The position numbers and the translations under genes are program-made. Shown here piece after piece: positions 1 to 19,110 of a DNA stretch of 20,005 nucleotides. Every line of letters begins with the position of its first letter. Positions within the stretch are counted from its first letter, which is position 1. Origin of the DNA: Isohypsibius dastychi (Eukaryota; Tardigrada; Eutardigrada; Parachela; Isohypsibiidae); contig JAQIWT010000451.1 in assembly GCA_034696485.1 (NCBI GenBank), positions 1-20,005 on the forward strand, read 5' to 3'. The notes below the pieces were generated by a model. It saw nothing but the letters and a program-made list of their open reading frames with translations, had not been told where the DNA came from and made no database searches.

Positions 1-77
1 GTCAGGTTCGGTCAGGATTTCCCGGATATTATTCCAGGTTAAATCCACCAAGGAAGCAGATAACACCAACTGTTTCA
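1..77 (+). repeat. 3' end of the 5' LTR
   Basis: This stretch is identical to 19034-19110 and ends in TGTTTCA, giving the usual CA terminus. The rest of this LTR lies left of the window. It contains a small internal repeat: GGTCAGG occurs twice, separated by three bases (the first G is seen only in the right-hand copy). Confidence 0.9.
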
Positions 78-79
78 TT

Positions 80-97
80 TGGCGCCCTCTGGAGAAT
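80..97 (+). promoter_or_regulatory. Putative tRNA primer-binding site
   Basis: TGG, the complement of a tRNA CCA end, begins two bases after the LTR terminus, and the site starts TGGCGCCC. The first eight bases equal those of the classical tRNA-Lys primer site of gypsy and lentiviruses, but the following bases diverge, so the primer tRNA is not assigned. The site position is well supported and the exact length is assumed to be 18 nt. Confidence 0.7.
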
Positions 98-153
98 CCC
101 GGAGGAATTATTTATTTGGAGGAATTATTCACGTCGACGTGGAAAGGATAAAG

Positions 154-3100
154 ATGGCGGATTGCGGATCAGCCAAGGAACCAGTGAGTGGAAAAGCGCA
201 AGGAAGTTCCGACAACGTTCGTCAAAAGTCGGGAAAGTCCGTAAAAGACCCGGAAGTGGACAAGGACGGTCAAGGTCAGACCGGGGACACGTCATCGGAG
301 CACGGTTTTCCAACCAGGAATGCGAGGAAGGCTAACCCGGATCGAGTCATCATTCTGGATGAAAACGAGCTGGCAAGGGTGGAACAGGAAGCCAGGATGA
401 AAAGAGGAGTGGGACGACGGGGTAAGTCAGATTCAGCTGTTGAAATGCAGGCGGAAGTTGGGGTTATCCCGGGTATTCAAGGCCTGGATCCCAACTCCGA
501 TGCTTTCTTTCCGAGAAATGTTATTTTGGATATGGATAGCGAAGGAAACTTCGGTAATTCGTGTGGTGCGATCAAGGAAGTCAGTCTAGAGAACGCGAGA
601 GTTCCGGACAGCACCTTGAGTCGGCCAGCGAAGATGACCGGAAGTGGGTCGATGACCGGTGAATTGGCAGATGAATCGAAGGGTTCATGTTTGGAAAAAT
701 TCGACGAGTTCGAAAATAAATTGAACGATGTCTTTAATGACTCGGCATCTTCAGAGGATGGTTCGGAAGTCGGAAATAAAACACCGATTAATACAGTGGT
801 CAAAACAGGGTCATTGGGGCACGAGAAGAGTCATCTTCTTGGTTCTAATAGCCTGGTTGAGACACTGGATTGGCATGATGCTGATGAGACATTTATTGAA
901 ACTCCAGCTCGGGTTTTGAACAATCCGTTTAGCAAGGAGGCCATGGAGCGACGAAAACTGGCAAACGAATCGCCAGACATTCGCTTGAAACGTGCGTTAT
1001 CGGAATTCAGGAAAACGAGGGATTTGGCTGAGCAGAGATCTCGGTTGAGGAGCAGTCCTGAAGACCAAGAAGCGCGTCACATGGATCTGAAAAATATGGA
1101 TGATTCGGATATTCGGAAAGAATTGATGGAAACTCGAGAATTATCAGACTCGTTAATTTTACAAATTGATGAGTTGAATAATCAAATTCAGCATTTACGT
1201 ACAAGCGAAAAATCCTGGCAGCACAAGTGGCAAAAATCCGACGAAGATTGTCGAGTTTTCGTGGATGAAGTGCAGGATTTACGTCGGGAGGTTGACAGGT
1301 TGAGATTGGAATCCAGAACAAAAGAGGATTTGATTCTGGAACGAGCTAAGCTTGGCGTGGAGACACTCCGAGCTAAGCGGAATAAGCTGCAAGCTAAATT
1401 CCAAGCATGTCTGGAAGAAAACGAAAACTTGAAGATAAAGTTACGTTTGAATGGAGCGGACTTACCACCGAATTATTCGCAGAGCCAGGCAAAAGAAATG
1501 GCCTGCTACGAACAAAGTGAACGGGATAAAATCCGTGAGGGGGCTTTGAAACAAAAAGCACTCTGCGAAGCAGAGATCAATCGCCAGAAGAAAGAATGGA
1601 GCGAAGAAATTCATTCTCTGAGAGCAGAGCATGCGAGGTTGCAAGTCGCTGCGAAATTGGAAGATGACAGGCTTTCAAAATTGAAAGCAGAAGCGCGATT
1701 GTTCGAACCTGGAAACCAAAAGATGGTTACGGATTATAACCACCAAGAAAACAAACCGCCAAGTTACCGTCGAAATCCAAATTTTGCAGACGATATCTCG
1801 GCGATTGGAGATTTCGATAACAATTCGGTGGCAGAAACGGAATTTACAATGATAAGCTCCAGCACAAAAATTCCGAGTAAACAAAAACGGAAGATCGCGA
1901 CATCGTTGAACCTGGATTTTTCAAATCCAGCTCAAGATTTCATGAAGGGATCTCGCGTATATCACGATGAACCACTGGGACAATTCGCTCCAAGTTTCCA
2001 TGATAATTACGGAAACCCGATCACACAGGAACAATATACAGCGATGCTTTTGGATGAGGCGCGTGCACGAGATTATAATGCCTTAGGGAGACTGCGAGGT
2101 GGAGCAGGCGGACCAGATGGGCTCGGGGGATTACGTGGGGGTGCACCCGTAAGAAATGATCAAGGGGCTAACCACCCAGTCTATCGGAACAATTTGAGGG
2201 CGGACCACGTTGAAGCGCCTATGAATAATGCCAACCAGGCAGGGGGACAAAACCCAATCGTGGCGAATGGCAATCAACCTATTCCCCCAGTTGGTAGAGG
2301 TTACCAACAACTCCCAAACCCTGGTAATGGTTATGTCCCAAATAATAACGCGCCCGCGAATAGAAATTCGGTCCCACATAAAATGTGGATTCATCCTGAG
2401 TATAAATTCAGCAATGCGCAGGATCAGGATGTCGAAGATTGGTTGCGTAGCTGTTATTCTACGGCAGGACAAAATGGCCATGACGAAGCCGGTACGAAAC
2501 GATGGATCGTTTGCAATATGGCCGGACCAGTCCTTACATGGTATAACAGGCAAGCCATGGAATTAGCTGCACTAAACGTTAACGAGTTCGTGGAAGTGAT
2601 TATGAAGAAATATAATCGGAAAACGACTTTCCAGGATGAACTGGAAATGAACAACTGCACATATAATCCAGATTTGGACGATATGGCAGCGGATTACTGC
2701 GACACTAAATTAGCGCTCATTAATAAAGTGGGGCAGACTTGGAGTGAGCAATTGAAAGTTGCAAGGATGATCCAAGGAATCCATCGGTGCTCGATGGTTT
2801 ACCTCGAATTCCAACGTAAAAGCCAAACGCTTACGTTGGAGGAATTCCGAGAAGGTCTTGAATCATGGGAACGCGTTTATCGCAGCGAGCGGGTCAAGGA
2901 TGCAAAGTATCGACAAATGGTTTTAATACCACCATTACCAGGAGCGGTTATGAAACCAATTATGGGAAAATTGGCAGATGTACCGCCGGCTATTATAACA
3001 CCCGCATTCCCGCCGCAAGCGGCCAGGAAATTTAGCAGCCAGATTGTCCCGCCGGAAGCAAGTGCTGCAGAAAAAGAAGCTGGTACGGAAGTTGACAACA

Positions 3101-3798
3101 AGCAAGCTTCAGTAGCCTTTGCGGATCAAAGGAGTGCGCAACAAGCAGCAGGTGGTGCTAGCCAGAATACGCCAGCAAACCCGTACCAAAGTGGATCTAA
3201 TGGCGCATACCAAAGTGGAAACCCGGGTGGATTTCAACCCGGTTATCAGCGGAGCCGAACCCCAAACGGGGCATTCCGAAGGTCACAGAGCGGGAATTTT
3301 CGCAGTCAAAGCGGAAATCGTATGATTCCTGGAAACGGAAGTTACGGAAACGGAGCTGGATCAGGACAAGGCAGGCAGTCCCGAGATACTAGGCGATGTT
3401 ATAATTGTGGAGTTTCCGGCCACATTTCCGTAGACTGTTTGGTCAAGGAAGCTGTAAACAGGATGAACCCGCCTCGGGAATCCAGCGCAAACTTCAGGGC
3501 GAAAACTGGCGCTTATGAACCGCCCAAACCAAGTGAACCGGCTAAGGAAAGGTCATCCAGTTGGGTAAGACCAGATGACCCAGATTTTGCGGTTAAACGA
3601 GCACGATTTTGGGTATTAGGTGGTATGCAAGTTTGTGAATGCTGTGGCCGAGTTGGTCACACTTTCGCAGAGAAACTATGCCCAGAATCGCATGCAACCG
3701 ATACGGTTCGATTTAAGCCGCGAAATGGGTTTTTGGAACAGGCGATTCAACGCCATAAGCAGGCTTTAGCAGAGGCAACTAAAGCAAAAAACGGGTAG
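154..3798 (+). CDS. gag: Gag polyprotein (1214 aa)
   Basis: Structural protein that should form the virus-like particle and bind genomic RNA. The open frame extends up to a TTG at 79, but the first ATG is at 154 in good context (AAGATGG), leaving a 76-nt leader after the LTR. The N-terminal third is charged and serine-rich. Residues about 310-510 are a long heptad-like coiled coil. A glycine/asparagine/proline-rich linker follows. Residues about 745-915 look like a retrotransposon capsid core (tryptophans in VEDWLRS, RWIVCNMAG and TWYNRQ). Two zinc knuckles follow: a canonical CX2CX4HX4C (nt 3397-3438) and a variant CX2CX4HX6C (nt 3634-3681). It is unusually long for a Gypsy Gag. The last codons carry the frameshift site that feeds Pol. 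A strong splice-donor match (GTAAGT) lies at 422-427. Confidence 0.9.
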   Translation: MADCGSAKEPVSGKAQGSSDNVRQKSGKSVKDPEVDKDGQGQTGDTSSEHGFPTRNARKANPDRVIILDENELARVEQEARMKRGVGRRGKSDSAVEMQAEVGVIPGIQGLDPNSDAFFPRNVILDMDSEGNFGNSCGAIKEVSLENARVPDSTLSRPAKMTGSGSMTGELADESKGSCLEKFDEFENKLNDVFNDSASSEDGSEVGNKTPINTVVKTGSLGHEKSHLLGSNSLVETLDWHDADETFIETPARVLNNPFSKEAMERRKLANESPDIRLKRALSEFRKTRDLAEQRSRLRSSPEDQEARHMDLKNMDDSDIRKELMETRELSDSLILQIDELNNQIQHLRTSEKSWQHKWQKSDEDCRVFVDEVQDLRREVDRLRLESRTKEDLILERAKLGVETLRAKRNKLQAKFQACLEENENLKIKLRLNGADLPPNYSQSQAKEMACYEQSERDKIREGALKQKALCEAEINRQKKEWSEEIHSLRAEHARLQVAAKLEDDRLSKLKAEARLFEPGNQKMVTDYNHQENKPPSYRRNPNFADDISAIGDFDNNSVAETEFTMISSSTKIPSKQKRKIATSLNLDFSNPAQDFMKGSRVYHDEPLGQFAPSFHDNYGNPITQEQYTAMLLDEARARDYNALGRLRGGAGGPDGLGGLRGGAPVRNDQGANHPVYRNNLRADHVEAPMNNANQAGGQNPIVANGNQPIPPVGRGYQQLPNPGNGYVPNNNAPANRNSVPHKMWIHPEYKFSNAQDQDVEDWLRSCYSTAGQNGHDEAGTKRWIVCNMAGPVLTWYNRQAMELAALNVNEFVEVIMKKYNRKTTFQDELEMNNCTYNPDLDDMAADYCDTKLALINKVGQTWSEQLKVARMIQGIHRCSMVYLEFQRKSQTLTLEEFREGLESWERVYRSERVKDAKYRQMVLIPPLPGAVMKPIMGKLADVPPAIITPAFPPQAARKFSSQIVPPEASAAEKEAGTEVDNKQASVAFADQRSAQQAAGGASQNTPANPYQSGSNGAYQSGNPGGFQPGYQRSRTPNGAFRRSQSGNFRSQSGNRMIPGNGSYGNGAGSGQGRQSRDTRRCYNCGVSGHISVDCLVKEAVNRMNPPRESSANFRAKTGAYEPPKPSEPAKERSSSWVRPDDPDFAVKRARFWVLGGMQVCECCGRVGHTFAEKLCPESHATDTVRFKPRNGFLEQAIQRHKQALAEATKAKNG

Positions 3799-3826
3799 CA
3801 CCAGGGAGAGGGGAAAACTCTGGTGC
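3786..3826 (+). promoter_or_regulatory. -1 programmed ribosomal frameshift signal between gag and pol
   Basis: In the gag frame the codons just before the stop read GCA AAA AAC GGG TAG, giving the canonical slippery heptamer A AAA AAC at 3786-3792. A 5-nt spacer is followed by a perfect 7-bp stem: GCACCAG at 3798-3804 pairs with CTGGTGC at 3820-3826 around a 15-nt purine-rich loop. The pol frame is -1 relative to gag and already open upstream of the heptamer, so slippage fuses Gag to Pol directly. The same heptamer is used at the MMTV gag-pro junction. Whether the loop forms a pseudoknot cannot be told. Confidence 0.9.
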
Positions 3827-6800
3827 GGGTGAAATCCCCAAAGATCCGGACAAAGTAAAAGATTCGGTTACGAAACCGGAAGAGGAGGTGCAACCGGGAG
3901 AAGCGGTTGGGAATAAATCAAGCAGTTCGGAAAATGAGGTTGAAGGCCTAGAGCCGGAAACCGAAGTTCCGGAAAAGCGAAAATTTTACAATAAATTTCG
4001 CATCGAAAATATGGACGATTTGAACCGTCAAATGTCCAAGATTGATAAGGTAGTTGACTGCAAAGCAGTTGAAATCAACGAGAAAGTTGACGTCATCCCA
4101 AATAAGGATGAAATTGAAATCGATTGGGCAGACGACTACGAAGTTGTTTATTTGTATAAAAGATTGCAATTGTTACAGGCAGCAGCGGGCCTAGAACCTG
4201 TGGACGAAGGTGACGAGTTCCTAGAGGAACCGGACGAAACAAGGAGTTTCCTGCACGAAACGCTACCGGCTGCACCACAAATGGTCAGCTATAAGAAGCA
4301 CTGCTTCTGGGAGTCAGCATTGAATAACCGAGTGGTCAGATTGAAAATCGTGACCTCCTCGCCGGTGTCCATTATTCCGAAAGCGATGGCAGACGAATTC
4401 AAAATTCCGGTTTGGAAAGCGTCACCAACGGAGATTGTTCAGGTGGAGGATTGCCTTGGAAACATTAAGGACGTCGAGCTCGAATTTGCAGAGCCGGAAA
4501 TGATTCTGCCGTTTAAATTAGATGGCGTTTACGGTATACCCGACAAATTTATGTTTCATGTGGCGCCTATTGATGAAAGGAATGTAATCATTGGATTAGA
4601 TTTCTTAGCAAAATATGGAGTCAAATACGATTGTTTGACGGAGAAATGGGAAGCCGTTAAGCACATCGAAAGATCTGATAAAGACAAGGCGGACGACCTT
4701 GTTGCGATTAGACCTTACGAAAATATAGAGCGCAGAGTGCGTTGTTTTTCGAAAAATGTGGAGAATCCGCAATCAGATCCGAGAATTTTTAAGGCTAACG
4801 GTGAGGTCAAGCCAGAAAAAATACCTGCTGCGCCGGCAGCGGCGCTGAATAGCGAAACGGTTCTTAAACCACTTATCGATCGAGCGTTCATGGGGGCTAT
4901 GATTTTCGAGATTGAGATCAATGGGATAAAAGCCAATGCGATATTCGATACAGGGGCGACCCTATCCACAATCCCAATAGACTTTGCGGAAGAACACATG
5001 TTCGACATGGATAAGTTGTCGCCCGAATACGGAATCTGGCGAACAAGGTCATGTTTTGGCGAATCGCGTGAATTGCCAATGTTGGTTTCGAACGCCACGG
5101 TCGATATACACGGCATCATTTACAAGCACCGATTTTGGATCGAAAACGCCAAGGGAACAAATCTGATATTTATTGGAATTGATTTCTTAATGGATAAGGA
5201 CATAAGATTCCATTTTAATGAACGGGCAATCGTCGTGTCACAGGCATGTCCGATAACGGGAAAAATAAGATCATCCATTGCCAGTATGTTGGGTGACCCT
5301 GATGCGAAACGGCAATCGAAAACCTACTCGGTACAAAGAAATCGTGATGCCTTGGAAACCGGCATTCAAATCGTCTACAAAGATGAGGACCTAGTGGACG
5401 ACAATGAGGATTTAGGCGATGAACTAAATCGAAGATTTCTGGAAGATAATATCCATGTTTGCGAAAAGGTCATCCCGAATGAGAACGTGTCAGATGAAAT
5501 ATCGGCGAGCAGACGGGAAAAATGGATCGAGTCGGTAATACTCGATTCAAAAATGGATGACCATTTCATGGAACAAATCATTGCGGCATGGGGAGAGCTC
5601 ATTGACCGCGAAAACCCACCGACAATTCCGCAAAGGAAAGTGCCAGTGGGAAAAGAACAAATCGTTCTGCCAGAAATAAAAAATAATGCTGGTGCTAGCA
5701 TCTGGGGACCTTGGGTGATAACCAAAGGTCGAATACTGACCACGGTTTGGGATTTCGTGGGAAGAGACCCGTCGGAAATGCAGGCCGATAGAGGCGATTT
5801 GCTCATTGTTACGGTCGCGGAAGGCACGGGCGAAAACAAGGGCTGGACGAAAGTCCTTAGCTTTAATAAGGAAGGTTGGATTCCAACCAACTTCCTAGCA
5901 CCGATCTCAAAAATAACGCCGGAATGCCGGAAAATTGCGGAGAAATATTACGACCGTTGTCTGAAGGACAAGCGTGATAATTTCGATAATGCAAAGTTAC
6001 CGTTTTATGCAGGAGACAAGGAAGTCTCCAAGAACGCTAACGAGTTGGTATGGTCAAGTGCGGGTGTCCTCGCAAAGACAAATGTGGACCTATTGTTTGG
6101 GGATAACACCTCAATCGGAGCAGAACAATCGCGAACGATTTTGGTAGTGCTAGATTACCGCATGGCAGATTTCTCTGGTGACCTTTTGGTACGAAGAACC
6201 GCCCGTATGAAACGGAAAGGAATTTACTTCCACGAATCCATCATCCCGTTTAAAAACGGTTGTGGACTATTAAGGGTGCAGAATCGGAACCCTTATCGGA
6301 CCTACTTTGGTAGAAACGATCGTATTGGTGGGGCTGAAATATTTTCGGATTCTGATGAAGGAGAATATTTTAATCAAATACTGGAAGAATACCAGAGACA
6401 CGCTGAAATTTGTCAATGCGAGACTTGCCAGGCTTTGCTCAAACGAGCGAAACTGGGAAGTAAAACAATGCGCACGCCAAACACACCCGAGCTTCAGGCG
6501 CAATTCGACATTAAAATGTTGCGGGAATTTTTGAGTGGAGTAGACGAGGAGGAAACCCTTACGTCAGCTCAGGTAGCAAATTTCGAGGAATTCGTTACGA
6601 AGGAAGAAGCGAAAGCTTGGCTTAAGCCAGAGCCGCTAGTGCTGGCCAAAACAGGTGACGGAAAGGTCACCATAAATGGCAAGGAGCTCAAGATGCCAAA
6701 AGAGCTGGACCCAAAGCAGCAAGATGAGTTGGTAAATTTACTCAAGAGATTTCCCGAGCTTTTTCCCACAAAGGAAAATCCAATCGGGAATTGCACTCTA

Positions 6801-9800
6801 ATAGATCACCCAATACGGACAATCGGACATCCGATAACTACCGCACCCAGACCAATGTCGCACGAAAAAATGCGGTTGTGCGAGGAAACGATAAAGGAAC
6901 TGCTGGACATAGGAGTCCTGCAAAAATCACGATCCCCTTGGTCCACTCCAGTGGGGTTTGTCTCCAAAAAAGATGGTTCGGTGCGCATGGTTTGCGACTA
7001 CCGCAGGTTGAACTCGGTGACGGAAGCGGACGTTTACCCGTTACCCAGAATCGACCAGATTTTGGACGCTTTGGGAAAAGCAAGTTGGTTTACAAGTTTG
7101 GATTTAAATCAAGGGTTTAATCAAATCCTTATCAAAAAGGAAGATGTCCAGAAGACGGCAATCACCACGCCGCAAGGTTTATACGAATTTAAACGTTTAC
7201 CGTTCGGCCTAAGTGGAGGGCCAGCTACGTTCCAACGCTTGATGGATATTGTGCTCAGCGACCTTAAATGGAAAGAGTGCATGTGCTACATTGATGATAT
7301 CCTTATTTTTGGGGAATCATTCGACGAAATGTTATTGCGTTTGGAACATGTTTTTGATCGGTTGCGTGATGCGCGGCTGACAATCAAATTGGGAAAATGC
7401 ATTTTCGCGCAACGCGAGATAGCATTTTTGGGCCACATCGTGGACAAAGACGGAATGAGGATGGATCCTCTAAAGGTCAAGGCCGTGAAGGAATTTGCGG
7501 TACCGACCAATTTAAAGGAGGTTCAGATGTTCGTGGGTGTTACCACATATTACCGAAAATTTATTCCGGATTACGCTAAGATAGCGGCTCCATTGACGGA
7601 CCTCAACCGAGGTTCGAAGCAGTTCCATTGGGGGAAGGAGCAACAAGAGGCCTTCGATAGGCTGAAAGAGTTGATGACAACTCAAGGGGAAAACCAAGTT
7701 CTGGCTAGGTTCGACCCCACCTTAAAAACCGAGGTCAGGTGTGATAGCTCCAGAAAAGGAATAGGAGCGGTTTTGGTACAGCGGCACCCAGAAGGGTGGA
7801 GACCAGTCGCGTTCACGTCTAGAAAATTGAATGCGGCGCAAGCGACCACATGGTCAATTCCCGAATTGGAATTGTGGGCAGTCGTTTACGCTTTGCAAAT
7901 TTTTCGAACATATCTGGAAGCTATTCCATGGGAGAAAAAGTTTACGGTCATTACCGACCAACAAAGCCTAACCTCGCTGAAAAATATGAAACGGCCAGGA
8001 ATTCGCCAAGCACGTTGGCAGATATTCTTGGACCAATTCAATTTCGATACGGTACATAAACCGGGACATTTAAATTTGGATGCAGATGGCCTGTCCAGAA
8101 TGGCTGTCGACGAGCCGTTGCCTCTGGGAGAAGAAGACACGGCCGAAATAAAATGGTTGTATAATCAAGCCAGAGCACCGGAGGGCTTTGATGTTCGAAA
8201 ATACGCTTACGAACCAGACGATTGGCGTAAAGACTGGAAAATCGCGGGTGATGGGCAAGTAACGCCCGAAGAAGCTGCTTTGTTCGTTAGAAAATTTTAC
8301 AAAATGCCGGCAACGGAATTTGTAAATCGCATGGCACAAGCCAGGGTGAATGAGGAAATCAAAGAGGTATTTGGTATTCCGGATGCGAAAGTTGGCTGCG
8401 AAAGCTACATGAAACAAATGGCGCTACTCTCGTTCGAAAAGCAAATAAAAGCACCCGACAACAAAGGAGACTGGGTGCGAAATTGCATTAAGAATTTAGC
8501 GAAGTCCATCGAAGCCATTATTCCGGATGAATATCTGGAAGGTGAAGATGAGGATGAAGTGGAGAACCTGGAAAGAGGCGATACGGACTACGCCGATAAA
8601 TTAGAAAAAGATAGGGAGCCGAGAGCAAAACCTATAAAAAAGTCCCAAATTTATCGGGAAAAGAGGAAGCCGTACGAAATTCCTATAAAACCAGAAGAAA
8701 TCCCGGTTGAGCCAGGTCTGGAGAAATCGGAATCGGACGAATCGGTGTATATCTTCGCTGATGCAAAATCAAACTATGCAGGCTGGAGAGAAGCCCAGCT
8801 TGATGACAAATTTTGTCAGGTTATGATTTTTGTGCTTGAGGGAAAAAACCTTGGCAGAGAAGTCACCGAAGTTGAGCGGGCGAAAGCAAAAAATTTCCAG
8901 ATGAGGAAAGGAATTTTGTGCCGCATTAGGCGAGAACAGGATCATATCCGCCTAGTTACAGTGGTGCCGTCTGCCATGAGAAAAATTATCTTGCATGAAA
9001 TGCATAATTCAAAGGAGGCTGGACATCAAGGAATAAGCCAGACTGCCTTATGTTTGAGGCAAAGATATTGGTGGCAAACAATGGTCAACGATGTCGTTCG
9101 TTACGTGCAGTCATGCGATGATTGTCAGCGGAGGAAAATGCCAGCGCAGCTACCGCCGGGAAAAATGGGCAAACCAACGGTAGCAACGCAGAAATTCGAA
9201 AGATGGCACCTGGATTGTGCTGGTCCATTTATACCATCCTCAGGCGGCCATAGATGGATTATTGTAGCGATAGATCCATTTTCGAAAACAATGGCGATTA
9301 AAGCCATTCGGGAGAACACAGCCATTGCAACGGCCGATTTTATCATTCGAAAAATTATTCGACAATATGGAGTGCCAAAAATCATAACGACTGATAATGG
9401 CAAGAATTTTACTGCACAGGTGGTTGCACAAACGTTCCTTATGCTAGGAATCAAACATGTCCGCACGACAATTTATCACCCGATCGCCAATGGTCAAGTG
9501 GAACGATATATGCGAGAAGTCAAACAATACATTTCGCACCAGGTCAGACCTGACCAATCGGACTGGAATGAACATGTGAATTGGGTGGCTGTCCACCACA
9601 ACATGAGGCGAAATAATACAACCGGATTCTCGCCATTTATGATCAATTTTGGCCAAGAACCAGTGCGTTCAGCGGATACATGGCAGGGTCATATCGATGA
9701 AGATGGCGACAATGTGGACGACATGGACATGTACGTCCAAAAATTACGAGAACAAATGCACCGAAACAACGAAATTTTGGGTGCAAGGACGGAAGCGGCT

Positions 9801-10583: not shown

Positions 10584-10599
10584 AATTTAACTTCGAAAT
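10542..10599 (+). repeat. Palindromic repeat, copy 1, spanning the pol stop codon
   Basis: Bases 10568-10595 are a perfect 28-bp palindrome. The arms continue to 10563-10600 with one mismatch. The pol TAA (10581-10583) lies at the dyad centre. The whole 58-nt block is repeated 154 bases downstream at about 90% identity without gaps. Confidence 0.9.
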
Positions 10600-10777
10600 C
10601 ATTCTCCTGTCATGAAGCAGAGGCAGCATTGTACTTTCTTCAAATGATGTTTCGATTTTGCGGAAGGTAGTGAGGCCTGAGCGAAAGCAGTTGGTCCCAT
10701 GGACCGAAAATCGCCCGATTCCGAAGTTAAATCTTTAGATTTAACTTCGAAATATTATTGTGAAAATCGCTAATGAA
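10584..10777 (+). other. Pol-ORF3 spacer
   Basis: This 194-nt non-coding gap holds the right arm of the first palindrome, about 100 nt of unremarkable sequence and the full second hairpin copy. No convincing TATA box or polypyrimidine-CAG acceptor was found, so how ORF3 is expressed is open. Confidence 0.6.
10696..10753 (+). repeat. Palindromic repeat, copy 2, just upstream of ORF3
   Basis: This is a direct repeat of 10542-10599 with 6 differences in 58 positions. It holds a hairpin with perfect 12-bp arms (10722-10733 and 10738-10749) and a TTTA loop. Relative to copy 1, a T-A pair has become C-G by changes on both arms, which keeps the stem. It ends 24 bases before the first ATG of ORF3, so it may act in the leader of an ORF3 message. 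Confidence 0.9.
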
Positions 10778-11932
10778 ATGTTCTCTTCAGAAATGGAAGG
10801 AGAGAAGTCCAGTGACAATGGGATTAACTCCCCGGCCAAGAAGACGGATTCGGAAATGGAGGTGGAAGGCGACGAGCTCCCAACCGGACTCGCTTTGGAA
10901 TATCTTCACCAGCAATGCCGAAAAGCATATGCGGACGGGCTTTTGGAAGGAGCTAAGGATTGGATGTTCGATCCGAAAATTGATGATATCCGGAAGATCA
11001 CGCGAAATGCAATTATCCACTCGGTTCCGGACACCATGGGATCCGCGTCTTTCTTGCAGGACAAAGTCAACGCTGCAAACTGGCAGTTGAAGCTTGCGCG
11101 ACAAGCGGCGAGTGCGGCCCAGAGTGCCAGAGACATCATCCTGGATCGTTTGAGAGAAATGCAACGAGAGGAGGCCGAGCAGCGCAAGCAGGAACGCGAA
11201 CGTCTCGCTGAGGAACGGAAGAAGTTGGAGGCTGCCAAACGTGCCGAAGTTGGCGGATTGATGGCTGTGGCCGATCATTGGGATCCAAGTCGATTGAAGA
11301 ACAACGTCCTCAACCGAGAGCGTAAAAACTCCATTGGATCGGTCGTCAATCTCGCTGGTAACGGAAGTCACGGAGGAGCTGCCGTGGAAACGATTGCTGA
11401 TTGGAAGAAAGATTCGGCTGGAACATCGAATGGCTTGCCAAAAGTCCAGGATAAGCCAGCGGAACCAGCCCCGATTAAAGTGAATCCTCAGCAGTATCTC
11501 GAACAGCGAAAGGAGAAGGAGCCAGTTGAGCCACGATCCAACGGGAAGTCGCCCAAGAAGTCTCGAAGTGACTCGATCGACTCGGATGAGTTTGCCCCGA
11601 AAGATCCGCAAGATGCGTTGGAAGAAGCTGCCGATCAGGTTGCGGAGATCTCGTTCCGCATGTGGGCGAATTTGCATCAGATTCGGGGATGGAATGGTAA
11701 GCACCAGGAGTTGCTTAACCAAGGTGTGGAAATCCGAGCTGAGCAGATCCAGCGGGGATATTATTTGGAGGAAGACTTCATTAAAGAAGTCGAACAAATC
11801 TTGGACAGCACTCTGACCATCAAGGAGTTTGCTGAACGTCCGCGTGCAACTTTGGTTAGCGTGTTGCATCCGGAGGAGGACGAAGAGCCGATTTTCACTG
11901 AGGATGAGGAGAAGGATGGGCCTTCTGCCTAA
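10778..11932 (+). CDS. ORF3: uncharacterised coiled-coil protein (384 aa)
   Basis: No family is recognised. The frame opens at a GTG at 10760, but the first ATG is 10778; a second ATG at 10793 (GAAATGG) is also plausible. The N-terminus is acidic and serine-rich. Residues about 30-120 look helical and folded (contains KDWMFDPKIDDIRKITR). Residues about 125-160 form a highly charged coiled coil (REMQREEAEQRKQERERL). A basic/serine low-complexity stretch follows (KSPKKSRSDSIDSDE). A second folded segment has two tryptophans (SFRMWANLHQIRGWNG), and the C-terminus is acidic. No signal peptide or membrane segment is seen, so it is not an envelope. It is a separate gene from pol (194 nt apart), converges on the antisense RRM gene, and has a poly(A) signal 160 nt downstream. 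An accessory role is inferred from position only. Confidence 0.75.
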   Translation: MFSSEMEGEKSSDNGINSPAKKTDSEMEVEGDELPTGLALEYLHQQCRKAYADGLLEGAKDWMFDPKIDDIRKITRNAIIHSVPDTMGSASFLQDKVNAANWQLKLARQAASAAQSARDIILDRLREMQREEAEQRKQERERLAEERKKLEAAKRAEVGGLMAVADHWDPSRLKNNVLNRERKNSIGSVVNLAGNGSHGGAAVETIADWKKDSAGTSNGLPKVQDKPAEPAPIKVNPQQYLEQRKEKEPVEPRSNGKSPKKSRSDSIDSDEFAPKDPQDALEEAADQVAEISFRMWANLHQIRGWNGKHQELLNQGVEIRAEQIQRGYYLEEDFIKEVEQILDSTLTIKEFAERPRATLVSVLHPEEDEEPIFTEDEEKDGPSA

Positions 11933-12093
11933 ATGTTTCGAGTAATGTCTGGTGATTTCATTCGGTTTTGCACCAGAAGTTGAATGTTGAATGTTGACCT
12001 TTTAGTTAATTAACGTTTTCGCTGGAACGTATGTTGATTCATTTGACTCGTTAAAACGAACAACCTTGGCCAGGTTGGATCGTATCATCTTTT

Positions 12094-12099
12094 AATAAA
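12094..12099 (+). terminator. Poly(A) signal AATAAA, plus strand (ORF3)
   Basis: An exact AATAAA lies 160 nt after the ORF3 stop. It would end an ORF3 message but must be read through by full-length genomic RNA. Confidence 0.5.
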
Positions 12100-12157
12100 A
12101 CCCCGGGGATTAGAAACGACTTCTCGTGTTCGAACATTCGGAAGAAAAGACATAGGA

Positions 12158-12163
12158 TTTATT
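12158..12163 (-). terminator. Poly(A) signal AATAAA, minus strand (RRM gene)
   Basis: The plus strand reads TTTATT, which is AATAAA on the minus strand, about 212 nt beyond the RRM gene stop. It lies past the ORF3 signal when read from the other side, so the two messages should end close together, tail to tail. Confidence 0.5.
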
Positions 12164-12374
12164 TTCTGCAAACGATAAAGTTCTCGAACGTATGGTACAG
12201 CCAGTCATTTGAAAATCGGTGAAGGTTACATGCACCTCGAAAAAATTAAAATCATTGGAGCACGGAAAGCCACAAAGCTTATCAAGCAAAGAAAAGGCAC
12301 AAAAATTGAAAATCCCGAAGGCAGGCCGAATACATGGGAGCAAGAAGTCCGCTGAGGTTGCAAACCGGAAGCGA

Positions 12375-13739
12375 TCACTTTTTCTTCAAGGCGACTACCA
12401 AGCCATGGTGTCCATTCAAACCGGAAATAGCATGTTGAGCCTGCAAATAAAAAGCTTTGGTTAGATGAAGAAAATCCTTAAAGGAAGCAATGAGGCTTAC
12501 ATCCGCCATGGTATGAAAGTTAATGAATCCAAAACCAGGTCGATTCCTACGATGCTTTTGCACAACCTGGAGAACGGCAAAATAAATGCCAGGAACAACC
12601 AGATCGCACCGGAACGTACCTTAAGGTTGAAGAAGGGACCGTAGGGGTTGAAGATTTGGTGGAGGAAAGCCAGATTGTGGTGATGACCAAGATTTCCGAT
12701 GAAAACCGCAACTTCGGTCATAGCAGGAGCAGCTGGAGTAGGAGCAGCTGGAGTAGGAGCAGCCACAAGCGCTTGAAACTTGGGACTGGCATAGCGGGAC
12801 GAAATGCAAACGGAAATGATACGGGTCTGGAAAGACGGAGCTTGTCCGTTGAACTGGGCAATGGCGGATTGAGCGCTTGCAGCTTGGCGGAAGTGGACAA
12901 AACCATACTTTTCCGAGTTGGGAGTTCCTAAATCATGAAGACGTTCAGTATTATTTTACAAATACGAATAAACATGGTTAAAGGTCACGAAAATTACCAT
13001 CAAGATAGATTCGCGGTGTATCGATGACCTTGACAATGAAGATAGCCCCAAGAGGACGAAATTCCCGGTAAAGATGATGGGTTCGGACGTGTTGGGCCAA
13101 TCCGTCAATTTTGATCTGGGCAAACTTCTCAAGTTTCCCAGCTGGCAGAGCACGTTCAACCTGGAAGATATCCAGGTTAAAAATTCGTTGGTAAATAACG
13201 GAATGACAGAGCACGTAAAATTCCAAGAAAAAAACTCAGCAAACGTTGAGAATCGCAAAGCGAAAACCAAAAATCTGACTTACGTTGAGGATACGTCCTT
13301 CAATCATCAAGTCACGTAAAGCAGCGCGAGCTCGATTGGCCTCGTATTCCGAGATGAAGGTTGCATGCCCGAAATTCGATGCGATACCGGTGGTGTAGCC
13401 TTGGGAAAGCTTGTAGGGAGCAAGCAACGAGTCCATAATGGCTTCTGACCCCTGAAAATAAAGAACGGAATTGATATTTGTCAGGCAGAAGAAATAGGGC
13501 CAATTACATTCGTTGGAAGATGCGAAAAGATGAGCCTGGTAAGGATCTCGTCAGGTTGACTCGCACGAAATTCCTCGAATTTTCCATGGACGTTTGTCAC
13601 TTCACCTTCGGGGAAGACTTGGCGGGAAACGGCATTTGGGGATAGCCTGAAGAAAATCACCAGTTGAGCATGTGGCAAATGCAAACAAAAACAAAGAACG
13701 AAGAACGTACTTTGGATACGAAACCATTGAAGCTGCCAT
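12375..13739 (-). CDS. Antisense seven-exon gene for a three-RRM RNA-binding protein (312 aa)
   Basis: Minus-strand join, in transcription order: 13739-13711, 13646-13508, 13451-13284, 13160-12998, 12927-12620, 12566-12501, 12440-12375. All six introns (64, 56, 123, 70, 53 and 60 nt) have GT..AG ends and compatible phases; the total is 939 nt ending in TGA. RRM1 is about residues 45-118 (LIFSHL), RRM2 about 125-212 (RNP1-like KYGFVHF) and RRM3 238-312 (RNP2 VFIGNL, RNP1 RPGFGFINF). An Ala/Pro/Thr linker made of 15-bp tandem repeats lies before RRM3. The third domain ends the protein. The closest general resemblance is to PABP/ELAV-like multi-RRM proteins, but no orthologue is assigned. The gene most likely came from a host locus with its introns, which would not be spliced from sense genomic RNA. 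It faces ORF4 across a 478-nt divergent spacer. Confidence 0.85.
12726..12763. repeat. 15-bp tandem repeat in the RRM gene linker
   Basis: The unit GGAGCAGCTGGAGTA is present two and a half times. On the minus strand it encodes the Ala-Pro-Thr linker before RRM3. The repeat keeps the frame. Confidence 0.85.
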
Positions 13740-14217
13740 GTCTGTTGGATAAAAGGTCACTAAGAAAGTGGAAATACGAAGCTAAAAATAGCGGGATGTG
13801 GAATATGAGGATGTGCTGGAAAGGCAATCGGAATGAGAAAGATTTTCCAGAAAATGCTGGCTTTTAAGCCAGAAAATGGGAACAACGGACAAGATCCGTT
13901 TAGGAACGAGCTAAGTGCCTACAAGGCACTTTGACCATGCAAATAGCATGAGTAGACTGGGTAGTCATACCATAACAGCATACTGGAAAATAACTGCGCG
14001 GCACGAAACGGGGTAGGCGTAGGCCGCAAGACCGTGCGTATGCACACGGTTCAATTCGGTTCATTTCCACATTGTGCGGAGTGGAAAACCCGGAAAACTG
14101 CAGAGTCTTTGCAATCTTGAAAGAGGAAGTCTTGGGTTTGAATCCACTTACCAGATTGATTCTACAACCTGAAATTGATTATTCCTTGAGTGCGGGAGAG
14201 ATTCTGTGGAGCAGAAA
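13740..14217. other. Divergent intergenic region with a cluster of hairpins
   Basis: It lies between the start of the antisense RRM gene and the start of ORF4. Within about 170 nt it holds six short inverted repeats: 13884-13900 (6-bp stem), 13913-13931 (8-bp stem AAGTGCCT, 3-nt loop), 13936-13950 (5 bp), 13955-13966 (4 bp), 13998-14027 (5 bp) and 14031-14050 (6 bp). An octamer ATGCAAAT sits at 13937-13944. It could be a bidirectional promoter, a structured RNA element or both. No complete coding sequence or tRNA was recognised. Confidence 0.5.
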
Positions 14218-17200
14218 ATGGCTATGGACGGCCAGTGGCAAAAAGACACCTTCAAAACCATTATTTGGGATGTTGAGGGGAAAGTCGAGCTGGGAGAACC
14301 AATTGCGGTGGACGACATGGAGCCATCCAGATTTTACGCAGTGAATGATTCACACATTATCGTTATGACGAAGGAAAGCAAGTTCCACCTCGTCGGATAT
14401 TTTATGGAGCGGAGATCCCGATTTGGGGAGAAAGCGACATTCGAAGCCAGAACCGTCAAAGGGCTGATGAAGCGACTCCCGATATGCTTGCTGGTAAGCA
14501 AAATACGTTTACATTATTTAGACGTTGTGCAGGAGTGAGCAGGATATGTGGGGGCAGCAGGATTTCGAAAAAATGGACCGGAAGTGGAATTCTCGTTTTC
14601 AGGCTTGGGGAACAAACCCCTGCTCAAAATTTTGATAAAATAGCCTCAAAACGAACGAAAAAGCAGGAAATAATTATTTCATGCAGGTGGTGAGCGTTTG
14701 GGTTCAGGGAAAGAACCAAAAAATAATCGAAACTTTGGAAAAATTTCTTTTGTACATGCGCGAGATTTGCTCGCTAGGTGGCGCTAATATTCGAAAGTTG
14801 TTGGGTTACCAAACGGGATGGCGAAATTATTCGATACAACAAAGTCGCTAAATTATTCCCGAGGGCCGATTACAAATTATCGCTGCTGTAAAAAAGGAAC
14901 TAGGAATCCTGTAATAATGACTTTATATTTTGAAGGAATATAAACAAATCATAATATGCAGAAATCCAAACGGGATCGTTCATAGCGTGTGTAGGCTAGC
15001 AAAGGCTGAATATTTTACGAATTGTCCTGAAATATTTTGAGGAACGTGACGGAACCGGAAGTACATTTAAAGCATTTTGGCTTTGTAGGAAGAAATCCCG
15101 ATGAGTGGGAAGAACGTTACCCATTGGGTGCGCAAAGAGAGGATGCGTATTGACTGGAATCGCGCAAGTCCAATCAAGGAGTTCCTAAAACCCTATGTGG
15201 AATACGCTCTCCGTTTCCATGCGCTGGCGAACCGTATCCCGAAAAACGCTTATCAGCGAAGTGTGAACAAAGACGCGGGGGTCAGAAAGAATTTTTACTT
15301 TCCGGACAACATGGTGGAGCAAAGAACTTCGTATTTCATTTTGCGATCCGCTGATGGGACGTACTTAGAAGAACCCATCCAGTATCTAGGGGACGGAACA
15401 GACAAGGTCTGGATAATGGACGATTATGGAATCGTCTGGGAGCTCGTCGGTGATTATCGAGCGAAAAGGCGCGGATATGCCAGAGAAGCGAAAGCTGTAG
15501 ATCGGCTGGAATTCATTGGCGACCAAGATTTCACGTTCGGGGGAATGGATTTCTATTTTATGGGACGCGAATCCCTTATGGATATGGAACTCGGATCAGT
15601 GTTCAGCTCGAAGAACCGCGACGAGGGAATCGCTTTCCTGGTATACAATGCTACGTACAGCAACGTCAACCCTGAGAGAATCCATCGGATTGCGGAAGCA
15701 TTGGCGGAGGACGGCGACTTCCTCAGGGATTGTTTCGCGCTCCCGGGATTGATGGAACATTTGGAGGATGCCCCTCTGATGTTCCCACAGTTGAAAACGT
15801 TGTTGGAAAAGGCTGAATCCGACGACAAAAATGCAGCGACCTCGGCTGAACGAAAACTGGGAAGAGACTACCCAAAAGATAACCCAAAGTTGGATAGAAC
15901 CGACTTTCTGAAGAGATTGGAGTGGAAATCGGCTAAAACGCTGAGGTACGAAGATGACCCGTACACCATCCTGTTGAAACTTGCGAAAGAGGAAGATGGA
16001 AAGCGGGTAGAATTGCTGGGATCTATCCGGGAGAACATCGAGCTTCGATTGCAGGCTCGAATCCGAGCGAATCCAAGTAAGCCGGAAGTACAGCTGGTTG
16101 ATTTCAAGCATTTCGTGGATCTAAAGTCCCGAGGAGAAAAGGCCTACCCGACGGAAAAGGGAAGGCCGGATAGACTTCTCAATTTGGAGGAGAGACAAGT
16201 CTTCAACGAGGTTCGTTGCGGAAGTTCCGAGTTTGACCAGCAGTGTCGTAAAGATTGCTCAACTTGCGGGAAGACGGTCCAACCGGCGACGGATCGGTTG
16301 GTAGAGCGATTCCACGTGGGAACGGACCCCAAGGTGGATGTTTGGAAGCCGGTGTCGTGTGTAAATGATGTCGAACGAGCAGTCCGTTGGGAGAAGCCGG
16401 ACGGTGCTGAATGGCGATGGGGAGGCTTGCAGTGGAAAGCCGAACCAAAAAGGGAGAACAAGTTGCCGGTGGACATGGTGAACGCAAACCTGCACTCGTT
16501 CGGAATGATGAAAAAGTTGGCTTTGAAAAAGAAGTTTCCGGACCAGGTCGAGGAAGTCGACCCAGCGTTTGAGATGGCCGGCCTCATCAGGTCCTTGTCT
16601 ATGAGAAGGCGGCGGCTTGTGGGAGATACGAGCCGGGAGTACAGGATTTACATCCAAAAAGATATTCCAGTGGCCGGAAGTTGTTCCAAAACACCAAAAT
16701 CAGCCCGAAAGCCGAATGTGGTAGCGAGGGTTAAGCAAACCCCCGTATTCAAGGCTGGTATGCACATGATGCAAGTAATTGCAAATAAATTTCCTGAAAT
16801 TTGATGTTCCAGGAAAACGGAAGCAGAAGGAAACATCTTCGGAGGAAGAAGAAAGTGACCCATCAAGCCTTGAGGAATCCCATACTACCCCGAGAACGGG
16901 TACGAACGTTTTTCAAAATATTTTTGCAATAGCAAATGAACGAAATTAAATGAAGGTTATCTTTCAGCCAAACGGGGAAAGGCCAACCTACGAAGGGGAT
17001 CGGAAGCGGTGATGAGTAAGGCTTGGGAGACGTGTAAAGCCAAAATCTTCCGCGGGATTGAGTCAAACCTGAGTCCTCGGATAAGACGTGAATCTGCCTC
17101 TTCCGAACGTGGAGGAGATTTGGCCGCCGGAAACGTGAAATTCGCTGAAGGGACAATTGGCGCGAGGTTCGCTGCAAAAGCCAAGGAGCGTGAAAGGATC

Positions 17201-18076
17201 GCCAGAATCCCTGAAAATACCGCTGGTCCCAGCCGTCGTTCAGCATCTTCGGAGCTCGATGTGGAAAGAGCCCAGCCCCCGTACATTCGACTTCGCCAGC
17301 AGCTGGCGCAGAAAAAGTCAGCTCAAGATCAGGAGGATCGTTTTAAGCCATTCACAGCTAATTTGACAGCGGAGCAAAGGGCTCAGCCTGGATTCATCGA
17401 TCGAATTGAGCAGCATTTGGCCCAGAGAAAAGCGGCCCAAAGGGCAGCGCCGGAGGGATCGAGTTTCGCGATGAATCTCCGAAAACCCAAGGAGCCATGC
17501 GCAACTCAGCGTATGTCACCTGAAGATTCCGACTTCGAACGGGAAATGTTGCCAAAAATTCCCGAAACGATCCCAGTAAAATCCCAAGGCTCAAGAAAGT
17601 CACCAAGACCGGTTCGGAAGATGTCACCGGAAGAGACCGACGAAGAGGAGGTCAAGCTTGTGAGGAAACCGCTAAAGATCGCTACCAGGTCTGCGCGAAA
17701 AACTCGGCCGTTGTCTGAGCACGAAGAGCCGAAGCGATGCGACGCAAAGCGAACTGGACCGGAAGTTACCAGTCATTTGCCGAAGCAGTATGCCCTGGAA
17801 GCTTGGACGGCTCTGGCAGATCGTATGCCCAACGGCGAAGCCAGGGATTATCTGGCAGTGGGAAAGTTTATTCACCGCAGTGACATTACGGATGGGCAGC
17901 AGGCCGATTATAAGGAGGAAGCATTTATGGCGCTCACCTGCTGGAAGGAGCAGAATTGGGGTGTTGATCGACCTTTGTTGTACCAAATCGAGCGTCTGGC
18001 CGTGAAATGTGGATTCAAGCCTGACTTCGAAGAAACTGTGGATGATGTCGATGAATACGATGTACGTATCGATTAG
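14218..18076 (+). CDS. ORF4: spliced four-exon gene, 1046-aa protein with C-terminal death-fold-like domain
   Basis: Join 14218-14493, 15089-16757, 16813-16899, 16968-18076. The introns (595, 55 and 68 nt) begin GTAAGC, GTATGC and GTACGA, end TTTGTAG, TTCCAG and TTTCAG, and all phases agree (3141 nt in total). The start is the first in-frame ATG, in AAAATGG, after an upstream TGA. Residues 1-650 look globular and match no family I know; a CRKDCSTCG cysteine cluster could bind metal. Exon 3 is acidic (SSEEEESDPSS). Exon 4 is basic, with two repeats related to AQKKSAQ/AQRKAAQ and two MSPE(D/E) motifs. Residues about 952-1031 have the helical Trp/Leu spacing of death-fold domains (EAWTALADRM, ALTCWKEQ, QIERLAVKCGF). 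There is no signal peptide or membrane helix, so despite its env-like position it is not an envelope. Without splicing of intron 2 the frame stops at 16804. Confidence 0.7.
14494..15088 (+). other. Large first intron of ORF4
   Basis: The donor GTAAGC follows codon 92 and the acceptor CTTTGTAG lies at 15081-15088, with phase 0 on both sides. At 595 nt it is about ten times longer than the other introns here. It contains no convincing ORF. A second acceptor-like TTTCATGCAG at 14677-14686 could serve an alternative form. The alternative is that exon 1 and exon 2 are separate genes, with exon 2 starting at ATG 15101. Confidence 0.55.
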
Positions 18077-18359
18077 GTTGAATAATGCTCGGTAAAAAAC
18101 GATAAATTCGAAATAATTTATTGTGGCCGAACTAAAAAATTTGAGAAGTGGATTGGCCAAAATGAAGATTTTGAGAGCTTCCATATCTGGAATTTCTGAA
18201 AATTTCTGGAATCAAAATTTGAGGTTTATACACCCTTCAAACCGAGTAATGTTACGGTTGATGAATTATTTAAAATCATTTAATAATTCAAATCAATTTT
18301 GGTCATATCGCGGGGTGGAGTGCACTGCAGAGAACGCAGTGGCGCCCATTCCGAAGTAA
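18077..18359 (+). other. AT-rich region between ORF4 and the probable 3' LTR
   Basis: No gene is seen. It includes the first copy of the 20-nt repeat AGTAATGTTACGGTTGATGA (18245-18264) and a TGGCGCCC match at 18340-18347. No clear polypurine tract precedes either repeat copy. Confidence 0.5.
18245..18264 (+). repeat. 20-nt direct repeat, copy 1 (possible LTR start duplicate)
   Basis: It is identical to 18355-18374, with an offset of 110 nt. Each copy contains TGTTACGG, a plausible LTR 5' terminus beginning with TG. Confidence 0.8.
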
Positions 18360-18374
18360 TGTTACGGTTGATGA
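18355..18374 (+). repeat. 20-nt direct repeat, copy 2 (possible 3' LTR start)
   Basis: It is identical to 18245-18264. If the LTR begins at TGTTACGG here (18360), it is 751 bp long; if at copy 1 (18250), it is 861 bp. Confidence 0.8.
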
Positions 18375-18680
18375 TTTCCGGTCCTAATCCCTACGTTGAA
18401 CCTCCAGGATTAACGCGTCGCGGCTCGCCGGATAATTCGCATCCTGGATTCACGTTCAAACTTATGTTCACCTTGGATTGGATCTTCTCATCTGGACCGG
18501 ATATCATCATTGGACTACGCCGGAAGCACCATTGCCGGACGTAGGCTTTCTTTTGTTCTCTTTTATTATTGGGTCTCGCATTTAACATTCAATCGCTATT
18601 GGTTAAATGCAAACTGAACGGGGATTTATGTTCACGCCCCTTTTGTGGCCTTCGATGAAATCATGCCACACTTCAGTCAG

Positions 18681-18686
18681 AATAAA
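18681..18686 (+). terminator. Poly(A) signal AATAAA in the 3' LTR
   Basis: An exact AATAAA lies inside the probable LTR, on the strand of the element, and is the best candidate for polyadenylation of genomic RNA and the ORF4 message. Confidence 0.5.
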
Positions 18687-18809
18687 ATTACCCAAAAACA
18701 TCTTCGATATATCTTTTATAGATTATTTGAGATTCGGGTTTATCTTCTCCAGGATCGAGATTCTTCTTGATCTTGCTCATCGTTGCTGTGTGCGACATCC
18801 CTTCCGGAA

Positions 18810-18976
18810 CTGGTAGCTTCAGCTCAACAGATTCGGATTCCTTTGCTGTCCAAGGTCGCTGGTAGCTTTAGCTCAACAGCGGTCAATTGGAAACCCCATC
18901 CAGGATTCCAGGTAGCTTCAGCTCAACAGGAGTCCAGGAGATCCTATCGTCGTTCCTGGTAGCTTCAGCTCAACAG
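18810..18976 (+). repeat. Four regularly spaced copies of GGTAGCTTCAGCTCAACAG in the LTR
   Basis: Copies start at about 18810, 18859, 18909 and 18956, so the period is 47-50 nt. The 19-nt core is identical in three copies and has one change in the second (TTTAGC). The 26-31-nt spacers between copies are unrelated. The core holds a small inverted repeat, AGCT-TC-AGCT. A degenerate fifth element (GGTAGCAGC) may follow at about 18984. Confidence 0.9.
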
Positions 18977-19033
18977 GAGTAGCGGTAGCAGCCGGAAGCA
19001 GCGTCAGCAACTTCCGTTCGTCGTTGTATTCAG

Positions 19034-19110
19034 GTCAGGTTCGGTCAGGATTTCCCGGATATTATTCCAGGTTAAATCCACCAAGGAAGCAGATAACACC
19101 AACTGTTTCA
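19034..19110 (+). repeat. End of the 3' LTR, identical to 1-77
   Basis: All 77 bases match the start of the window. The sequence after 19110 is unrelated to that after base 77, which marks the element end. Confidence 0.95.

Follow-up and report, generated by a model that had tools for sequence, protein, structure and literature searches.

Contig JAQIWT010000451.1 (C451) of the tardigrade Isohypsibius dastychi, analyzed here in its entirety (positions 1-20005, the window), contains a giant, probably autonomous Ty3-type long terminal repeat (LTR) retrotransposon that carries three additional genes behind pol. The order of its parts is the end of a left LTR, gag, pol, open reading frame (ORF) 3, a gene on the opposite strand encoding RNA recognition motif (RRM) domains, ORF4 and a complete LTR, beyond which about 0.9 kb of flank remain (Table 1). 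The element measures about 19.1 kb plus the missing part of the left LTR, and the region between pol and the 3' LTR is 7.8 kb long. A preliminary description of this DNA had noted intact gag-pol and the three further genes, two of them with introns and on opposite strands, and all of this was found again: the RRM gene has seven predicted exons on the minus strand and ORF4 has four on the plus strand. The three genes (the cargo) look like an old, kept part of the element lineage rather than trapped host genes, and we are highly confident of both the anatomy and the long-term retention of the cargo. Taken as a whole, the element is best explained as a giant retrotransposon with an RNA-regulatory accessory module, an explanation that we consider reasonably probable; we give about the same credence to an RNA-regulatory role for the RRM protein itself.

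The three cargo genes look long-standing because their arrangement recurs in part in relatives; the searches covered the contigs of the same 30.4-Mb genome assembly. For example, contig C731, whose reverse transcriptase (RT) is 91% identical to that of C451, is arranged like C451 from pol through ORF3 and the antisense RRM gene to ORF4. Its ORF3 is 48-50% identical to that of C451 in amino acids and its ORF4 26-32%, and the RRM exons are 52-64% identical in the best two stretches. Other contigs have single parts, namely, an ORF3 fragment with stops in C436 (78% identity), ORF4 in C655 (75% in the long piece) and ORF4 with stops in C383 (67-71%). In C655, ORF4, the 3' region and the LTR form one block (855-5303) with 73-75% nucleotide identity. 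The preliminary description had suggested a giant element, possibly one of a family, and had proposed looking for the cargo in other copies; the cargo is indeed at matching positions in them and is not confined to C451.

These results also bear on the idea that two unrelated LTR insertions have trapped host genes between them, or that the contig is an assembly chimera. In C451, the left LTR is reduced to 77 nt and the left flank is missing, as such an origin would allow. However, the gene order is the same in C731, ORF4 is linked to the LTR in C655 and antisense RRM matches lie behind pol in four more contigs, so that this origin is hardly credible. The recurrence of the cargo in other copies rules out trapped host genes, and the possibility that the left and right LTRs belong to separate insertions, which the preliminary description had named as a way in which it could be wrong, is contradicted by ORF4 running into the same LTR family in C655.

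The antisense RRM gene is also present in more distant elements. A search with the RT gave 123 matches in the genome, and RTs with at least 64% identity across 202 or more of the 336 residues define a set of 11 contigs, C451 included (the others are C731, C572, C712, C67, C551, C1519, C1068, C1612, C1143 and C1362); C383 was left out with its 71-residue RT piece of 70% identity. Six of the 11 have antisense RRM matches (C451, C731, C572, C551, C1362 and C1519), and the RTs of the more distant elements with the gene are about 64-73% identical to that of C451. The distance from the start of the RT to the RRM match is 7.1-7.8 kb in C572, C551, C1519 and C1362, the RT anchor of the last being extrapolated from a partial match, and 5.8-6.1 kb in C451 and C731. 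The RRM protein of C1362, used as a query (E up to 10), had eight non-self matches, of which four are on contigs of this set, each antisense to pol (C1519, E 6e-10; C551, 2.5e-9; C572, 1.4e-5; C731, 0.05) and four are elsewhere (C837, C357, C1067 and C296). There are at least 153 RRM matches genome-wide, presumably mostly host genes; a chance RRM neighbor is possible for one element and unlikely for five. At the DNA level, the RRM gene matches C451 alone.

A phase-0 intron follows an HLP motif at the same site in C451, C731, C1362 and C551 (splice sites as read in these four elements). This shared intron site, together with the antisense place behind pol in divergent elements, suggests that the RRM gene was probably acquired before the elements with about 64-73% identical RTs diverged. 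The term gene-capturing in the preliminary description, understood as opportunistic pick-up, is therefore not supported for a gene with a shared intron in such elements. As a separate observation, two of the four matches elsewhere to the element-type RRM protein, C837:3617-3919 (E 4e-7) and C1067:6211-6456 (E 0.02), are on the minus strand and are possibly further elements.

Several observations weigh against an old and common cargo. C731 is decaying, with stops in the RT, ORF3, the ORF4 stretch and the RRM stretches (some of the latter possibly intron), and in C655, the 847 bp upstream of ORF4 have no RRM match. The RRM protein of C451 recovers only C731 besides C451. Its link to the distant proteins by local phmmer is E 1e-7 for C1362, 0.017 for C572 and 0.047 for C551, and otherwise draws on Pfam, position and the intron site. 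The C1519 match was recovered by the C1362 protein only, the sequence itself being unread, and exons 3 and 4 of C451, scanned alone, give no RRM match in Pfam. ORF3-like frames are present in C67, where the two frames scanned lack an RRM domain; C712 and C1068, the post-pol sequence of which is unread, showed neither an antisense RRM match nor the hairpin core described below. Two more of the 11 contigs are too short to reveal an RRM gene: C1612 ends within pol and C1143 about 1 kb past its hairpin cores. Finally, ORF3 of C572 matches that of C451 weakly (hhalign, E 0.034), with the addition of C67 to the profile leaving an eight-column match (E 0.79), and in the hhalign comparison of ORF4 between C572 and C451, six of 20 shuffled controls score as high or higher.

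All of the splice sites in the C451 genes are predictions, read from the sequence alone. A CAG stands 2-3 nt ahead of the ATG in three ORF3 genes (C451, C731 and C572) and three ORF4 genes (C451, C655 and C572). Comparison of ORF4 with C655 gave ratios of nonsynonymous to synonymous substitutions (dN/dS) of 0.16 (92 codons), 0.14 (397) and 0.30 (176) by exon, and ORF3 against C436 gave 0.145 (169 codons), with dS at 0.67-0.96 in these comparisons; dS has reached saturation where ORF3, ORF4, pol and RRM exon 2 are compared with C731. Intron 1 of ORF4 is 72% identical to C655 over the aligned bases (427/591), which is near the 75% of the coding stretch. Judged from these alignments, ORF3 and ORF4 are under purifying selection (dN/dS 0.14-0.30).

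ORF3 has no Pfam match, ORF4 has no recognized domain in domain searches and a search of viral contigs with ORF4 exon 2 gave no match. In a database of proteins predicted from genomes and metagenomes, which requires shared exact words and does not imply absence in animals, ORF3, ORF4 exon 2 and the RRM protein had no match at E 0.001 among 7995, 7998 and 7862 candidates scored, respectively. AlphaFold without an alignment gave a mean predicted local distance difference test (pLDDT) score of 44 for the end piece of ORF4 and 34 for exon 2, too poor to judge the fold; a death-like domain at the ORF4 end was suggested by eye only. One could view the element as an endogenous retrovirus-like one, in which ORF4, and perhaps ORF3, would stand in for env as a component of the virion or of cell entry. 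ORF4 does occupy the env position and apparently would be made from a spliced message. However, gag, pol, ORF3 and the frames with ORF4 exons 1, 2 and 4 have no Pfam match to an env or fusion protein, and no solved structure is convincingly related to ORF4 exon 2 (best E 0.6); we consider this view improbable.

The predicted product of the antisense gene can be classified by similarity. Its six introns are all GT-AG and 53-123 bp long, and a CAG stands just before the ATG in C451, where C731 has CAA. The best solved relatives of the 312-residue protein are of the PABP/ELAV type (6r5k, E 8.6e-15), with TIA lower down, and 102 distinct solved sequences match it at E <= 0.01, with the matches spanning three RRM-sized stretches. 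RRM_1 is the sole Pfam match above cut-off (20.7 bits) in the antisense frames scanned, scoring 34.7 bits in the frame with the largest RRM exon of C451 and 50.2, 28.8 and 26.2 bits in C1362, C551 and C572, respectively. Exon 3 compared with C731 has a dN/dS of about 0.2 over 56 codons (dS 1.8). The preliminary description had supposed that the cargo may help against host defense or in RNA handling; the latter fits the three RRM-like domains, and no evidence was found for the former.

Two alternatives concern how this gene would act. With the anatomy the same, the RRM protein could be cytoplasmic and PABP/ELAV-like, protecting the element RNA, promoting its translation or shielding it from small-RNA silencing, and the hairpins would have some other use. 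RRM proteins of the PABP/ELAV type act at many steps in the life of an RNA, and the closest solved relatives are PABP and ELAV; however, domain similarity is uninformative on compartment or target, and we regard this as a serious possibility, if an unlikely one. Alternatively, the antisense transcript and not a protein may matter, e.g., by pairing with the genomic RNA, as regulatory antisense transcripts have been proposed for plant elements (PMC7264820). The open frame over seven exons in C451, the RRM domains that other elements have in their antisense genes and the intron site common to four elements all speak against the transcript, which is very improbable as an explanation.

A possible partner of the RRM protein is a tandem pair of hairpins at the junction of pol and ORF3, each of which folds better than 200 of 200 shuffles. 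C731 has two hairpins with a spacing identical to C451, C572 has three (117 and 124 nt apart) and C1143 has two copies of the core 400 nt apart (pattern scan, the sequence itself being unread); altogether, the core is in tandem behind pol in five of the 11 contigs with close RTs. The genome scan for the core had 19 matches, compared to none for a reversed-pattern control; 11 are in arrays behind pol, one is on the opposite strand within C572 and seven are single (C255, C522, C630, C807, C866, C1067 and C1361). The pattern had been loosened to fit the known copies, and C1143 is the only fresh confirmation. Six cells of the stem changed on both sides vs. 2.5 in shuffles, and both this count and the covariation score were equaled in only one of 500 shuffles. 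The opposite-strand core of C572 (6983-6996) is inside an ORF3-like gene, and the single core of C1067 is at position 255.

Some of the hairpin results point the other way. The number of pairs changed was two vs. 1.8 in shuffles (380 of 500 as high) and that of further pair types two vs. 3.7. The covariation consists of two pairs that differ together between the three C572 copies and the other two elements, probably as one event. C67 has two core copies, 156 nt apart, with no evident stem, and the tie between RRM protein and hairpin is co-occurrence in one element only. A two-part control, in which the backward-encoded, intron-bearing triple-RRM protein would have the tandem hairpins as its RNA target, is offered as a tentative proposal that is rather doubtful at present.

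For an accessory module of the RNA-regulatory kind, we would picture the following. Full-length RNA from the left LTR would be both the genome and the gag-pol message, the latter via -1 frameshifting, and ORF3 and ORF4 would come from spliced or trans-spliced messages that use the acceptors 2-3 nt upstream of their ATGs. The RRM gene would be transcribed in reverse from its own promoter, and its introns would be kept through retrotransposition, as the genomic RNA is of the opposite strand. The RRM protein would bind the element RNA and control splicing, nuclear export or stability of the unspliced genome, possibly with the hairpin array as the cis signal, as in Rev/RRE or with the CERV protein of Cer1. 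An accessory regulator is the best reading of an antisense, spliced, RNA-binding gene, and we infer the export role by analogy with CERV and Rev.

If the two-part proposal is true, the module would decide how much element RNA exits the nucleus unspliced, and this would be a Rev/RRE-like arrangement using an RRM protein, with an origin separate from that of retroviruses. LTR elements are already known to have extra genes behind pol, often as frames with no assigned job; the antisense gene here has a readable biochemical class, i.e., RNA binding. The module of three genes on two strands with introns is common to two elements of the family and the antisense gene to more distant ones. The RRM gene, the hairpins and the splice acceptors make the role of antisense accessory genes in retrotransposons directly testable. 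The arrangement also suggests a route for an intron-bearing gene through an RNA stage, in which the strand would be hidden from the spliceosome in the genomic RNA.

Table 1. Features of the element in C451 (exons and splice sites are predictions).
Feature	Position	Strand	Description	Basis
Left LTR	1..77	+	Final 77 nt, truncated at contig end	100% identity with 19034-19110
Candidate primer binding site	80..105	+	Starts TGGCGCC, immediately inside left LTR	Motif read from the sequence
gag	154..3798	+	1214 aa, CCHC zinc knuckle near C terminus	Open frame from ATG 154; Pfam zf-CCHC, E 2e-4
pol	3783..10583	+	2266 aa; protease, SH3, RT, RNase H, integrase	Open frame; Pfam
Slippery heptamer	3786..3792	+	A AAA AAC, likely gag-pol frameshift site (-1)	pol read in the -1 frame relative to gag
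Hairpin copy 1	10560..10600	+	41 nt at end of pol, core CCCGATTCCGAA	Fold of 10530-10605, z -5.5
Hairpin copy 2	10714..10754	+	41 nt, 154 nt downstream of copy 1	Fold of 10690-10760, z -6.4
ORF3	10793..11932	+	379 aa, coiled-coil-like by eye	Single open frame from ATG; splice-acceptor-like CAG 2 nt upstream of ATG
Antisense RRM gene	12375..13739	-	7 predicted exons, 312 aa, three RRM-like domains	Stop-free joined frame; PABP/ELAV-type solved relatives
ORF4	14218..18076	+	1046 aa; 4 predicted exons, 14218-14493, 15089-16757, 16813-16899, 16968-18076	Open joined frame; CAG 3 nt upstream of ATG
Pre-LTR hairpin	18309..18359	+	Hairpin-forming stretch directly before 3' LTR	Fold of 18300-18362, z -3.7
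3' LTR	18360..19110	+	751 bp, TG...CA, four short internal repeat copies	Repeat search and comparison with other LTR copies

The matches in pol are, in order, aspartyl protease, SH3, RT, RNase H, H2C2 and integrase core, those to the protease being below the Pfam cut-off, and they include the protease, RT, RNase H and integrase in the order of Ty3/Gypsy elements. The RT ranks closest to Ty3-type RTs (4ol8, E 1.3e-65, and 7q5b, named Ty3-G, in the range E 1e-65 to 1e-64), a placement that is a ranking among solved structures; a phage search with the RT gave no match. The heptamer at the gag-pol overlap is at the equivalent position in C731. The SH3-type domain (SH3_2, E 1.2e-6; pol residues 657-708, about 5751-5906) stands between the protease and the RT, which is an unusual location.

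The left LTR is truncated because the stretch is the whole contig. Seventy-seven nucleotides is a common assembler word length, and the identity between the two ends of C451 is probably an assembly overlap; therefore, it says nothing about LTR-LTR identity or age. The identity of the LTR ends in the preliminary description is less telling than it seemed and extends over these 77 nt, up to the contig end that cuts the left LTR. The right LTR is complete with TG...CA ends, and its limits were set by two other LTR copies visible with both ends (C332 and C24), which share its terminal bases and are bordered by 4-bp target duplications, CTTT and AGGG, respectively. In C451 the right flank opens with CCAT, which would be the duplication predicted for this copy. 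No clear polypurine tract is evident by eye before the 3' LTR. The stem letters CACTGC/GCAGTG of the hairpin in front of it are also in C655.

Other observations concern the LTR and its surroundings. A 28-nt repeat with the core GGTAGCTTCAGCTCAACAG occurs four times inside the LTR (18807-18980), spaced 47-50 nt. The start of the LTR plus a few preceding bases (AGTAATGTTACGGTTG, about 18357-18372) recurs about 110 nt upstream (about 18247-18262) with a hairpin between, an arrangement that is also present in C655. In C24 (L040:1774-5861), frames matching a herpes UL52-type primase (E 7e-5) and a MULE/ZSWIM transposase are close neighbors. Neighboring sequence also has THAP, PAN and DnaJ matches, which suggest an animal host, THAP being animal-specific; searches for nematode cuticle collagen and SL1 RNA gave no match, and neither did the controls of the same searches.

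Known elements resemble the one in C451 in different respects. In Cer1, a Ty3/Gypsy element of Caenorhabditis elegans, the post-pol frame is part of CERV, which is made from a spliced mRNA and is required for export of the unspliced Cer1 genomic RNA, with acceptors kept near the predicted ATG (PMC10309623). C451 likewise has a post-pol frame with predicted splicing and an acceptor-like CAG near the ATG, which fits this description. However, one such protein is described for Cer1, with antisense genes unmentioned in the main text (PMC10309623), whereas C451 has three, one of them antisense.

The plant Retand/Grande Gypsy elements have a long region between pol and the 3' LTR, antisense genes in nearly all members and tandem repeats in about half (PMC11963269, PMC7264820). 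Antisense accessory genes in themselves are already known. Their region is 2.9-6.6 kb long, with TRP28 and similar domains, compared to 7.8 kb in C451, and RNA binding is unmentioned in the main text on Retand elements (PMC11963269). The antisense frames scanned gave no TRP28 match in Pfam, which sets C451 apart from the Retand lineage. In the open-licence literature searched, no LTR element with an antisense RRM gene is described in a title or at the start of an abstract.

Among animal elements, those of bdelloid rotifers also have extra genes, including a captured ORF3; the types named include env, DEDDy, GDSL, coiled-coil and transmembrane, with RRM and introns unmentioned in the main text (PMC5408684). 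Burro, a giant Gypsy element of planarians, is similar to C451 in being a giant animal element with many extra domains (PMC6431247). However, as described there, the Burro extras are mostly parts of a single huge polyprotein that also has an env-like part, whereas those of C451 are separate genes on both strands.

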